DNA from: Fibrobacter sp. UWB4
GTDB lineage: Bacteria > Fibrobacterota > Fibrobacteria > Fibrobacterales > Fibrobacteraceae
NCBI RefSeq assembly: GCF_002210345.1
Contig: NZ_MWQI01000001.1
Coordinates: 496,001 to 560,000 of the forward strand
DNA: 64,000 nt
Direction: 5' to 3'
Under the pieces are notes generated by a model. The model did no database searches. It was not told the DNA's origin and worked only from the letters and a program-made list of their open reading frames with translations. Positions 31,650 through 34,311 of this stretch are shown here, piece after piece. The position numbers were made by a program, and so were the translations under genes. Position 1 is the stretch's first letter. The number at the start of each line of letters is the position of its first letter.

Positions 31650-33536
31650 TCACTTCACGCTAGCGGTCAGCAACTTTGTAATTGCTGCCACATATTCAGC
31701 CGGGTTCGGGAGCGGAGAACCTTCGGCAAGCAAAGCCTGACCGTAGAGGGCCTTCGGCCAATCGCCAAGATCTTCGTTCGCTTCGGCCTTCTTCTTGAGC
31801 ATTTCGCAAATCGGGTGTGTCGGGTTGATTTCCAGAATGCGCTTGCTCTTCGGCAAGTTCTTCTGGCCCATAGCCTTCATCATGCGTTCCATCTGGGCGC
31901 TCATCGCGTCTTCGCTCGTCACGAGGCAGCACGGGCTATCCTTGAGGCGGCTAGACACGCGGACTTCCTTGATGTCTTCGTCCAAAAGTTTCTGCAGGTT
32001 TTCGCAGAGTCCCTTGAAGATTCCCTTGTTTTCTTCTTCGGCCTTCTTTTCTTCTTCGGTCTTTTCGAAGTCCACATCGCCACGGGAAATGTCGTGGAAC
32101 TTCTTGTCGCCGAATTCCGTGAGGCTAGACATCATGAATTCATCGATGCCGTCGCTCATGAGCAACACTTCGTAGCCCTTGGCCTTGAAGGCTTCAAGCA
32201 TCGGGTTCGACTTGATGGCGTTCTTGTCGCCCACGAGGTAGTAGATTTCCTTCTGGCCTTCCGGCATGCGCTTTACGTATTCGTCGAGGCTAACGAGAGC
32301 GTCGCCTTCGGTCTTGGTGCTTTCGAAACGGAGCAACTTCTTGAGTTCGTCAAGATGTTCCCAGTTCATGTAGAAGCCTTCCTTGAGGACCATGCCGAGT
32401 TCACGCCACCAGGCGTTATACTTCGCGACATCCTTGTCGGCCATGTTCTGCAAGGCGTCGAGCACCTTCTTGATCACGTGCTTGCGGATGTTGGTGATAA
32501 TCTTGTTGTTCTGCAAGATTTCACGGGACACGTTTAGCGGCAAGTCTTCGGAATCGACCACGCCGCGCACAAAGCGCAGCCAAGGCGGCAGCAAGTCCTT
32601 GCAGTCGTCCATGATAAAGACTTTCTTCACGTAGAGCTTGAGTCCGTGCAAAGCGTCGTTGTGCCAGATGTTGAACGGGGCCTTCGACGGAATGTAGACG
32701 AGGCTCCAGAATTCCTGGGAACCTTCGGCGTGGCTGTGGCTCCAGGCGGCCGGTTCGTCGGCTTCATGGCTGATGACGTTGTAGAAATCCTTGTACTGTT
32801 CTTCGGTGACTTCCTTTTCACTCTGGCGCCACAAAGCAGTCTTGTCGTTCAAACGTTCTTCGGGCTTTTCTTCGAGTTCGCCCTTGTCGTTCTTTGTGGC
32901 TTCCGGATGGAAGTAAATACCGTAGCTCACGAAGCCGCTGTACTTCTGGACGATATCCTTGATCTTCCATTCGCTGGCAAAGTCTTCAGCGTCTTCGTCG
33001 TCCTTGAGGTAAAGCGTAATCTTTGTGCCGACCTTGTCGAGCGGGGCTTCAGAAATTTCGAAATCGCCCGTGCCTTCGGAGCTCCACAGGTAACCCTGCG
33101 TTTCGCCAGCCTTGAGAGTCAAGACTTCGACCTTCTTTGCGACCATGAACACGGAGTAGAAACCCACACCGAACTGACCAATCAAATCGACGCTGCTCTT
33201 GTCGGCATCCTTCAAGTTCTTGATGAAGTTCTTGGTGCCGCTACGAGCAATCGTGCCCAAGCAGTTGATCAAGTCTTCCTTGTTCATGCCGATACCGTTG
33301 TCTTCGACAACGAGGCGCTTGCCTTCCTTGTTCACCGAAATATCGATGCGCAACTGTGTGCCCACCGGGAGGAGGCTGGAGTTCGAAAGCGAGAGAAAAC
33401 GACGCTTGTCGAGTGCATCTGCTGCGTTAGAAACCAGTTCGCGGAGGAAAATTTCCTTGTTGCTGTAAAGAGAATGAATCATCAAGTTCAGCATGTCGCG
33501 AACTTCGGTCTGGAACTCCATCTTTTCTGTTGCCAT
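31650..33536 (-). CDS. htpG: chaperone protein HtpG (Hsp90)
   Basis: Cytosolic ATP-dependent Hsp90 chaperone of 628 aa. The N-terminal GHKL ATPase shows FLRELVSNAADALDK, VEDNGIGMNKEDL and IGQFGVGFYSVFMVA. The middle domain has LYVKKVFIMDDC and LPLNVSREILQNN, and the C-terminal dimerisation domain follows with a typical PTHPICEML. AACAGGAGAT precedes ATG 33536. About 95 bp upstream of the start is a sequence that fits the sigma-54 promoter consensus exactly, which is unusual for this gene. Confidence 0.97.
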   Translation of the reverse strand: MATEKMEFQTEVRDMLNLMIHSLYSNKEIFLRELVSNAADALDKRRFLSLSNSSLLPVGTQLRIDISVNKEGKRLVVEDNGIGMNKEDLINCLGTIARSGTKNFIKNLKDADKSSVDLIGQFGVGFYSVFMVAKKVEVLTLKAGETQGYLWSSEGTGDFEISEAPLDKVGTKITLYLKDDEDAEDFASEWKIKDIVQKYSGFVSYGIYFHPEATKNDKGELEEKPEERLNDKTALWRQSEKEVTEEQYKDFYNVISHEADEPAAWSHSHAEGSQEFWSLVYIPSKAPFNIWHNDALHGLKLYVKKVFIMDDCKDLLPPWLRFVRGVVDSEDLPLNVSREILQNNKIITNIRKHVIKKVLDALQNMADKDVAKYNAWWRELGMVLKEGFYMNWEHLDELKKLLRFESTKTEGDALVSLDEYVKRMPEGQKEIYYLVGDKNAIKSNPMLEAFKAKGYEVLLMSDGIDEFMMSSLTEFGDKKFHDISRGDVDFEKTEEEKKAEEENKGIFKGLCENLQKLLDEDIKEVRVSSRLKDSPCCLVTSEDAMSAQMERMMKAMGQKNLPKSKRILEINPTHPICEMLKKKAEANEDLGDWPKALYGQALLAEGSPLPNPAEYVAAITKLLTASVK

Positions 33537-33629
33537 TTTAATCTCCTGTTAAATTTTTAAGCAATCCCGCAATTTTGCTGTTTCAAATTGAAACTAAAGG
33601 GCGGTCTTGTTTTGTTTCCGCGCTAGTAT

Positions 33630-33646
33630 ATGCAAGAACCGTGCCA
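33630..33646 (-). promoter_or_regulatory. sigma-54-type -24/-12 promoter upstream of htpG
   Basis: On the minus strand TGGCACGGTTCTTGCAT: the GG (33645-33644) and GC (33633-33632) are exactly ten bases apart and the flanks match TGGCACG-N4-TTGCW in full. The next gene downstream is htpG. An overlapping TATACT also exists nearby, so sigma-70 use is not excluded. Confidence 0.6.
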
Positions 33647-33735
33647 ACGATCTGCGAAGAAAAAAATGAGAAAAAAGTTGGTTTTTTATACTCGTTTTTT
33701 TTAAATTGTTCGAAAACCTATTTTTGGAGCAGAAT

Positions 33736-34311
33736 ATGAAAAAGTTGTTTCTCCTGTTGATTCTTATGGCTGCAGCCCAGTCATTTGCAATTTACGTTGA
33801 TGCTGGCCTCGGTATTGGTGATGCGTCATCATCTGTTAATGGTAATAGCTATGAGGACCATTGCCCCAAATGCAGTGATCTTGCCGTTACACTGAATGTT
33901 CGTGTGGGCGAAAAGATTCTTCCTAATTTATGGGTTGCTGGGGAACTTTCCGGCGTCGGAAATCGCTACGGTGCAGACCTTGTTGATACATACGGTCACA
34001 AGGAAGAATTTTATACTCAGTTCAATAGCTATTATCTGGGACCCAGCGTCATATTCTACCCGATAGATCATCTCCACTTGTCGGCTTCGCTTGGCTTCTC
34101 CTGGACGGCAAATTCTTCGAATTTCTTGTCCGAAACGTACCAGGATGGAAAGGGTGTCGCTTTTGCATTGTCGGTTGCTTATGATACCGGAAAATCAAAT
34201 GGTGCTTTGTTGGGGATGAAGTTCTACACGTCTCATGTGTCGATGAGTCCTTCTCAGAAAAGTTTGTCAACGACCGGTCTTCTGTTCTTTGTGAATTTTG
34301 TGCATAAATAG
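33736..34311 (+). CDS. predicted small outer-membrane barrel protein
   Basis: A 191-aa protein with signal peptide MKKLFLLLILMAAAQSFA, then alternating strands typical of an eight-stranded barrel (YVDAGLGIGDASS, LPNLWVAGELSGVGNRYG, LHLSASLGFSWTANSSN, ALLGMKFYTSHVS, GLLFFVNFVHK). GGAG is 7 bp upstream of ATG 33736. No close family recognised. Divergent from htpG; ends at a bidirectional hairpin. Confidence 0.7.
   Translation: MKKLFLLLILMAAAQSFAIYVDAGLGIGDASSSVNGNSYEDHCPKCSDLAVTLNVRVGEKILPNLWVAGELSGVGNRYGADLVDTYGHKEEFYTQFNSYYLGPSVIFYPIDHLHLSASLGFSWTANSSNFLSETYQDGKGVAFALSVAYDTGKSNGALLGMKFYTSHVSMSPSQKSLSTTGLLFFVNFVHK

Follow-up and report, generated by a model that had tools for sequence, protein, structure and literature searches.

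A conserved sigma-54 promoter element upstream of htpG and a candidate activator of a predicted chaperone regulon in Fibrobacter

Control of heat-shock genes is usually attributed either to RpoH, a dedicated sigma factor, or to the repressor HrcA. A two-component system, HsfA-HsfB of Myxococcus xanthus (Ueki and Inouye, 2002), is said to activate the protease gene lonD. In Flavobacterium psychrophilum, transcript starts mapped by 5′-end RNA-seq carry sigma-54 motifs (SM4) at groESL, dnaK, grpE-dnaJ, htpG, clpB and lon (PMC9723704). The accessible part of that report counts three enhancer-binding activators (EBPs), assigns none of them to these promoters, names no operator and does not mention HrcA (PMC9723704). 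A 2025 survey, aRpoNDB, predicts sigma-54 control for GroES, GroEL, GrpE, DnaJ, DnaK, IbpA and HSP90 genes and, in the portion of the article available, describes these as enriched in Bacteroidota and Planctomycetota (PMC12316311). Thus, as far as the available text of these two sources goes, the Flavobacterium starts and the Bacteroidota and Planctomycetota predictions mean that this kind of system is already known.

Here we consider htpG of Fibrobacter sp. UWB4 within one window, the whole 64,000-nucleotide stretch of DNA that was analysed (Table 1). An earlier note on this DNA had pointed to an exact GG-N10-GC sigma-54 consensus 94 bp before htpG and on the same strand, and both its sequence and its coordinates are correct. 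The minus strand reads TGGCACGGTTCTTGCA from 33646 to 33631, followed by T at 33630; exactly 10 bases separate GG from GC, and the ATG of htpG (33536) is separated from 33631 by 94 bases. The intergenic region (33537-33735) is shared with a divergently oriented gene that probably encodes an outer-membrane protein (ATG 33736). Although the window contains no exact match to TGGCACGNNNNTTGCW other than the htpG site, matches with up to two mismatches number 13 against 12.3 expected from shuffles, and because this is about the shuffle number we rejected in-window counts as evidence. Across the whole genome, the pattern with at most one mismatch occurs at 63 sites versus 28 for a reversed control. 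Sixty of the 63 were placed relative to genes; seven sites are exact, and all seven are intergenic, 42-124 bp ahead of a gene start.

Table 1. Features of the htpG promoter region (window positions) and the gene of the candidate activator (own-genome coordinates)
Feature	Position	Strand	Basis
htpG (Hsp90), 628 aa	31650..33536	-	ORF; NCBIfam HtpG equivalog 757.7 bits, cut-off 371
Sigma-54 element of htpG, TGGCACGGTTCTTGCA	33631..33646	-	exact match; -24 GG 33645-33644, -12 GC 33633-33632
Predicted htpG transcript start	33620	-	sigma-54 geometry, 12 bases past C of -12 GC
Predicted htpG leader, 84 nt	33537..33620	-	predicted start
Palindrome GTTTCAATTTGAAAC, proposed enhancer (predicted binding site of e)	33580..33594	.	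exact GTTTCAN3TGAAAC
e (EBP): degenerate receiver, AAA+ sigma-54 activator domain, Fis-type HTH	own genome C1:397383-398936	-	

Conservation is the real test of such a match, and on this comparison of sequences the htpG element is not a product of chance. Below, f1 denotes the family of the window, g1 its genus and g4 a sister genus within f1; other f numbers are further families. We sought htpG in 100 genomes of the phylum, matched it in 95 and read the upstream DNA in 70, searching 300 bp upstream of the gene. The site is kept in all 36 g1 genomes, where the best match has zero, one or two mismatches in 28, 6 and 2 genomes, respectively, and it is exact in all four g4 genomes. Markov-shuffled upstream regions gave a match with at most one mismatch in 2 of 4000 cases and with at most two in 91 of 4000. 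The best matches had 3-5 mismatches in the remaining f1 members (0/7 with a site) and likewise outside f1 (0/23, one of which, G090, was mis-anchored and is uninformative here). Among the genomes that keep it, the site lies 97-218 bp from the ATG; since it is kept while this distance varies, the leader appears to have been rewritten around a fixed promoter. The rpoN gene is present in this genome (PF04552, 172.8 bits), as are seven clear EBP genes, and rpoN occurs in all 47 f1 members. The proposal of the earlier note that sigma-54 may drive htpG thus gains support from the presence of rpoN and from the conservation of the site. In four genomes of the genus (G001, G052, G070 and G086) the match to the RpoN DNA-binding domain is split in two, which suggests insertions inside that domain.

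The promoter element is accompanied by a palindrome, GTTTCAN3TGAAAC. Given the predicted start, the copy at htpG spans +27 to +41. A palindrome was found within 300 bp upstream of htpG in all 40 genomes that keep the sigma-54 site, with all 12 fixed bases matched in 39 and one change in G010, and none was found upstream of htpG in the other genomes examined, which lack the site. From the start of the sigma-54 site to the start of the palindrome, the distance is 52-54 bp in g1; in g4 it is 52 bp in G030 and about 115 bp in G032, G072 and G080. In the Fibrobacter sp. UWB4 genome the htpG copy is the single exact one, and 10 places match with at most one mismatch. Five of these 10 lie within 100 bp of one of the 63 sigma-54 sites (binomial P ~1e-10), and the genes carrying the pair are htpG, dnaK(-dnaJ), grpE, groES(-groEL) and secA. 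At dnaK, grpE, groES and secA the palindrome precedes the promoter; at htpG it lies downstream of the predicted start. Across 18 genomes, exact palindromes number 27 versus 8 for the reversed pattern; 25 of the 27 are upstream of chaperone genes (groES 10, htpG 7, grpE 4, dnaK 3, clpB 1), some of the grpE assignments resting on position before dnaK and on appearance. The remaining two lie near a lipoprotein-like gene (G003) and inside the coding sequence of the activator gene discussed below (G064, L277:3267-3281); the latter is possibly there by chance.

Similar pairing is seen in relatives, where we allowed up to two mismatches in the sigma-54 site and one in the palindrome. Both elements occur upstream of dnaK in 20 of 27 rows, comprising 12/12 of g1, 4/4 of g4 and members of g2, g3, g5 and g6 (G094 and G025, in which no dnaK gene was called, are left out). 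For groES the figure is 21 of 29 rows, including members of f2 (G090) and f5 (G003), with G002 left out. These patterns suggest that htpG is one member of a chaperone-wide sigma-54 regulon with an identifiable operator and activator. At secA (L115:2508-5548; own genome C13:16508-19573), the sigma-54 site has one mismatch and the palindrome stands 26 bp upstream of it. Other intergenic sigma-54 sites, with no palindrome within one mismatch, lie ahead of clpB, an Hsp20-like gene and a sigma-70-family factor gene. The clpB assignment is a best NCBIfam match to ClpB at 1118.5 bits, below the cut-off of 1232.1, and the Hsp20-like gene likewise scores below the cut-off of its family model. The sigma-70-family factor, 270 aa long (L130; own genome C5:2589, minus strand), is preceded by an exact sigma-54 site; it is RpoS/RpoD-like, below all equivalog cut-offs shown, and a sigma cascade through it is possible.

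The distribution of the classical repressor bears on whether the htpG match might be fortuitous, with htpG in fact under a sigma-70- or RpoH-type promoter plus HrcA or other ordinary heat-shock control. HrcA is absent from all 47 f1 genomes and both f2 genomes, and was found in 9 of 10 f3 genomes. CIRCE, with at most two mismatches, precedes groES in 4/4 rows of f3 and f7; with up to four mismatches allowed it was found at groES in 0/25 rows of f1, f2 and f5, and none was seen at dnaK or groES in f1. In one f3 genome (G058), groES has both CIRCE and an exact palindrome, without a sigma-54 site; the palindrome may thus have another role in f3, or none. Ordinary control of htpG would fit the seven f1 genomes whose htpG lacks the sigma-54 site, and the hexamer TATACT directly follows the site at 33629-33624. 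A sigma-70 promoter overlapping the site through TATACT was considered and rejected, as the scan of 33500-33800 found no sigma-70-type promoter at its threshold. The single sigma-70-family protein of the genome that was scanned for RpoH scored 126 bits against a cut-off of 323.1. Site and palindrome are kept together in 40/40 genomes of two genera despite the change in leader length. With no HrcA in f1 and no CIRCE at its dnaK or groES, we regard a fortuitous match as very unlikely.

A second reading makes htpG a nitrogen-response gene, driven by sigma-54 with an NtrC- or NifA-type activator. Indeed, sigma-54 promoters also stand at glnN, glnK, gltB, pyrG, purF and dapF, and a GAF-type EBP gene lies beside amtB-glnK. 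These nitrogen-type promoters have a palindrome of their own. TTACAN5TGTAA occurs in seven copies at pyrG, dapF, glnK and purF and once at ilvB, where 0.006 are expected per 200 bp, and it is probably the site of the nitrogen activator. At pyrG, dapF, glnK and purF (C1:932173, C1:944946, C1:952891 and C8:165136; L112, L113 and L125) the copies lie 46-131 bp upstream of the promoter; the ilvB copy is at C8:32249. No TTACAN5TGTAA was found at htpG or at any chaperone promoter, and no GTTTCAN3TGAAAC at the nitrogen-type promoters. The two palindromes are never mixed, which provides an internal control. We therefore rejected the nitrogen reading of htpG, whose probability we put close to nil, since the nitrogen-type promoters carry another palindrome that is absent at htpG. 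Of the two kinds of signal that the earlier note had suggested, stress or nitrogen, the second falls for this reason, whereas stress stands because htpG shares its palindrome with dnaK, groES, grpE and secA.

The candidate for the activator of the chaperone promoters is the EBP that we call e (PF00158, 234.8 bits; PF25601, 80.7; PF02954, 50.6). We compared the EBP sets of 10 relatives in a tree, whose e clade (support 98/92, 11 rows) has members in nine of them, plus G000 and G064; the tenth, G025, has an e match at 48 % identity that lies outside the tree. The tree used 48 of 54 extracted entries: G092_L245 was empty, a motif filter removed G000a, G000b, G090_L216, G090_L239 and G003_L236, and G032_L243 is excluded, while 7 of the 17 EBPs of G058 and 5 of the 15 of G025 are included. 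Two genomes have very small EBP sets, three in G008 and two in G074, and e is the only orthogroup common to both. A direct search (E ≤1e-95) found e in 84 of 100 genomes, including 47/47 of f1, 2/2 of f2 and 10/10 of f3. By these comparisons, e appears to track the palindrome across genomes.

The gene neighborhood of e also points toward chaperones. In G028, e is the last gene of a groEL-hrcA-grpE-dnaK-dnaJ-e cluster, 6 bp after dnaJ; in G058 it lies 50 bp after dnaJ, and in G092, a member of f1, it also comes after dnaJ, separated by one small gene. Of the 27 tabulated genomes that have both e and hrcA, eight have the two within 5.3 kb of each other, many assemblies being fragmented. In g1, g3 and g4, genes for a histidine kinase and a single-domain receiver come first and then e. 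The receiver domain of e itself is degenerate: in the column read by eye, the phospho-acceptor Asp is present in one of 10 aligned proteins (G032), the others having E, E, N, S, C, N, S, S and A. The loop that contacts sigma-54 is GSYTGS in the genus of the window and in f3, versus the canonical GAFTGA; elsewhere e has GSFTGA (G032) or GAFTGA itself (G008, G026, G074, G092, G090 and G003). According to the accessible part of one article, changes in GAFTGA often reduce or abolish activity, and natural substitutions exist, for example A6 to S in PrpR (PMC3162934).

Evidence on what e might bind comes in part from outside the phylum. All 11 e proteins have the recognition helix LGISR[AST]T[LI]WRK. 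An unrelated EBP beside prpB (L317, L319 and L343), presumably PrpR-type, has LGISRTTLWR[RK]L, and the prpB promoter there carries GTTTCAN3TGAAAC. We scanned 84,980 species genomes for the composite of an exact palindrome, 40-70 bases and a sigma-54 site, and obtained 78 loci. Fibrobacterota records among them contain 11 matches: seven at groES, two at dnaK and two at ClpB-type genes. Outside the phylum, 38 of the 78 downstream frames encode proteins of methylisocitrate lyase (PrpB) type, and one encodes a DnaK-like protein (in a MAG, L329). The composite also stands ahead of small stress-protein-like genes in several phyla outside Fibrobacterota (L298, L333, L339, L341, L336 and L337); of three tested with Pfam Usp, one is above the cut-off (L339), L298 is weak and L333 has no match. 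In Xanthomonas citri, the available part of one report has PrpR binding GTTGCAA-N2-TTGCAAC as a repressor (PMC12153269). Because that site and that role differ, the available text of the report offers no confirmation of the prpB palindrome described here (PMC12153269).

These data also bear on the possibility that the sigma-54 promoter is real and the palindrome is bound by some other protein, either another EBP or a repressor blocking within the htpG leader. The position of the htpG palindrome, inside the predicted transcript, is the more usual place for a repressor operator. At dnaK, grpE, groES and secA, however, the palindrome precedes the promoter, the expected position for an enhancer. 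Another EBP group, orthogroup f, has members in G000, G008, G026 and G032 too. Yet it is not among the EBPs of G074 (2/2 examined), although that genome has exact palindromes at groES and grpE, and it is absent from the tree rows of G092, G090, G003 and G028, some rows of the first three having been dropped. The recognition helix that e has in common with the EBP at prpB promoters, where the palindrome is identical, further argues for e. We consider a different binding protein unlikely.

Our preferred reading, which we hold to be likely, is that sigma-54 transcribes htpG from 33631-33646 and that the gene belongs to a cytosolic heat-shock regulon activated by e through the palindrome. The sequences themselves show the promoter elements and the palindrome, how these are conserved and paired, a phylogenetic distribution of e that matches theirs, linkage between e and dnaK, and a lack of HrcA. 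From this we infer binding of the palindrome by e, activation by e, and protein-folding stress as the signal. The regulon would comprise htpG, dnaK-dnaJ, groES-groEL, grpE and clpB, and probably hsp20 and secA. The stress signal would reach e either through the neighboring histidine kinase and single-domain receiver, in the lineage of the window, or through a chaperone such as DnaK. An oligomer of e would then assemble on GTTTCAN3TGAAAC beside each promoter and, by hydrolyzing ATP, would open the sigma-54 closed complex at -24/-12, giving chaperone mRNA. Such ATP-driven opening is established for the EBP family. In the case of htpG, this enhancer would lie inside the leader and act from there.

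Several observations run against activation by e. First, at htpG the palindrome follows the predicted start, in contrast to its upstream placement at the other promoters. Second, pairing is incomplete: in this genome the sigma-54 sites of clpB and hsp20 are not accompanied by a palindrome, even with three mismatches allowed, and half of the 10 palindromes have no sigma-54 site nearby. In G092, groES has an exact sigma-54 site and e is in the genome, with no palindrome within two mismatches. Third, seven f1 genomes have e and rpoN and neither element at htpG, and f3 genomes have e alongside HrcA/CIRCE, without a sigma-54 site at groES. Finally, the GSYTGS loop of e in the genus of the window departs from GAFTGA.

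More tentatively, one may imagine how this arrangement arose. An e with a dead receiver, originally part of the hrcA-grpE-dnaK-dnaJ cluster, might have taken over the whole cytosolic heat-shock regulon upon the loss of HrcA, sensing protein damage directly, for instance by being held inactive by DnaK/DnaJ; we think this conceivable rather than probable. If true, it would amount to a third logic of heat-shock control, one that relies on an ATP-driven activator working on sigma-54 in place of a heat-shock sigma factor or a repressor. More broadly, in Fibrobacter, which are gut bacteria, the main protein-rescue genes, htpG among them, are apparently co-activated by sigma-54 and one dedicated activator rather than by the textbook heat-shock controls. 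Comparative genomics thereby supplies a candidate activator, a 15-bp operator and a target list in a second phylum, with sister families that keep HrcA/CIRCE and have the e gene in the same operon. Two questions can now be tested: the nature of the signal, and the rewiring from repression to activation through sigma-54.

It is useful to set the proposed system beside those already described. The proposed role of e would resemble that of HsfA-HsfB, in which a histidine kinase and an NtrC-type regulator turn on a heat-shock gene; the known target of that system is a protease gene. The PrpR-type EBPs at prpB in Burkholderiales and Xanthomonadales offer the same composite of palindrome and sigma-54 site and nearly the same recognition helix, but there the target is methylisocitrate lyase and the gene neighborhood is different. 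HrcA/CIRCE acts on the same targets as those considered here, groESL and grpE-dnaK-dnaJ; it is a repressor, whereas the Fibrobacter case is a proposed activator, and in sister families the gene for e sits in the very chaperone cluster that contains HrcA. A search of the literature, with subscription journals and preprints outside its range, found no published description of e or of its operator. In the aRpoNDB survey, Fibrobacter is not mentioned in the part of the text available, nor is any chaperone-specific activator or operator (PMC12316311). F. psychrophilum has sigma-54 at the same chaperone genes in a different phylum, with starts that were mapped there and are predicted here. Relative to the accessible account of that organism, Fibrobacter adds a candidate EBP, a palindrome, linkage to dnaK and a contrast with sister lineages that have HrcA/CIRCE. 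Overall, sigma-54 promoters at chaperone genes are already known, and what looks new is the Fibrobacterota case, with its candidate activator and operator and an exchange of control with HrcA/CIRCE.
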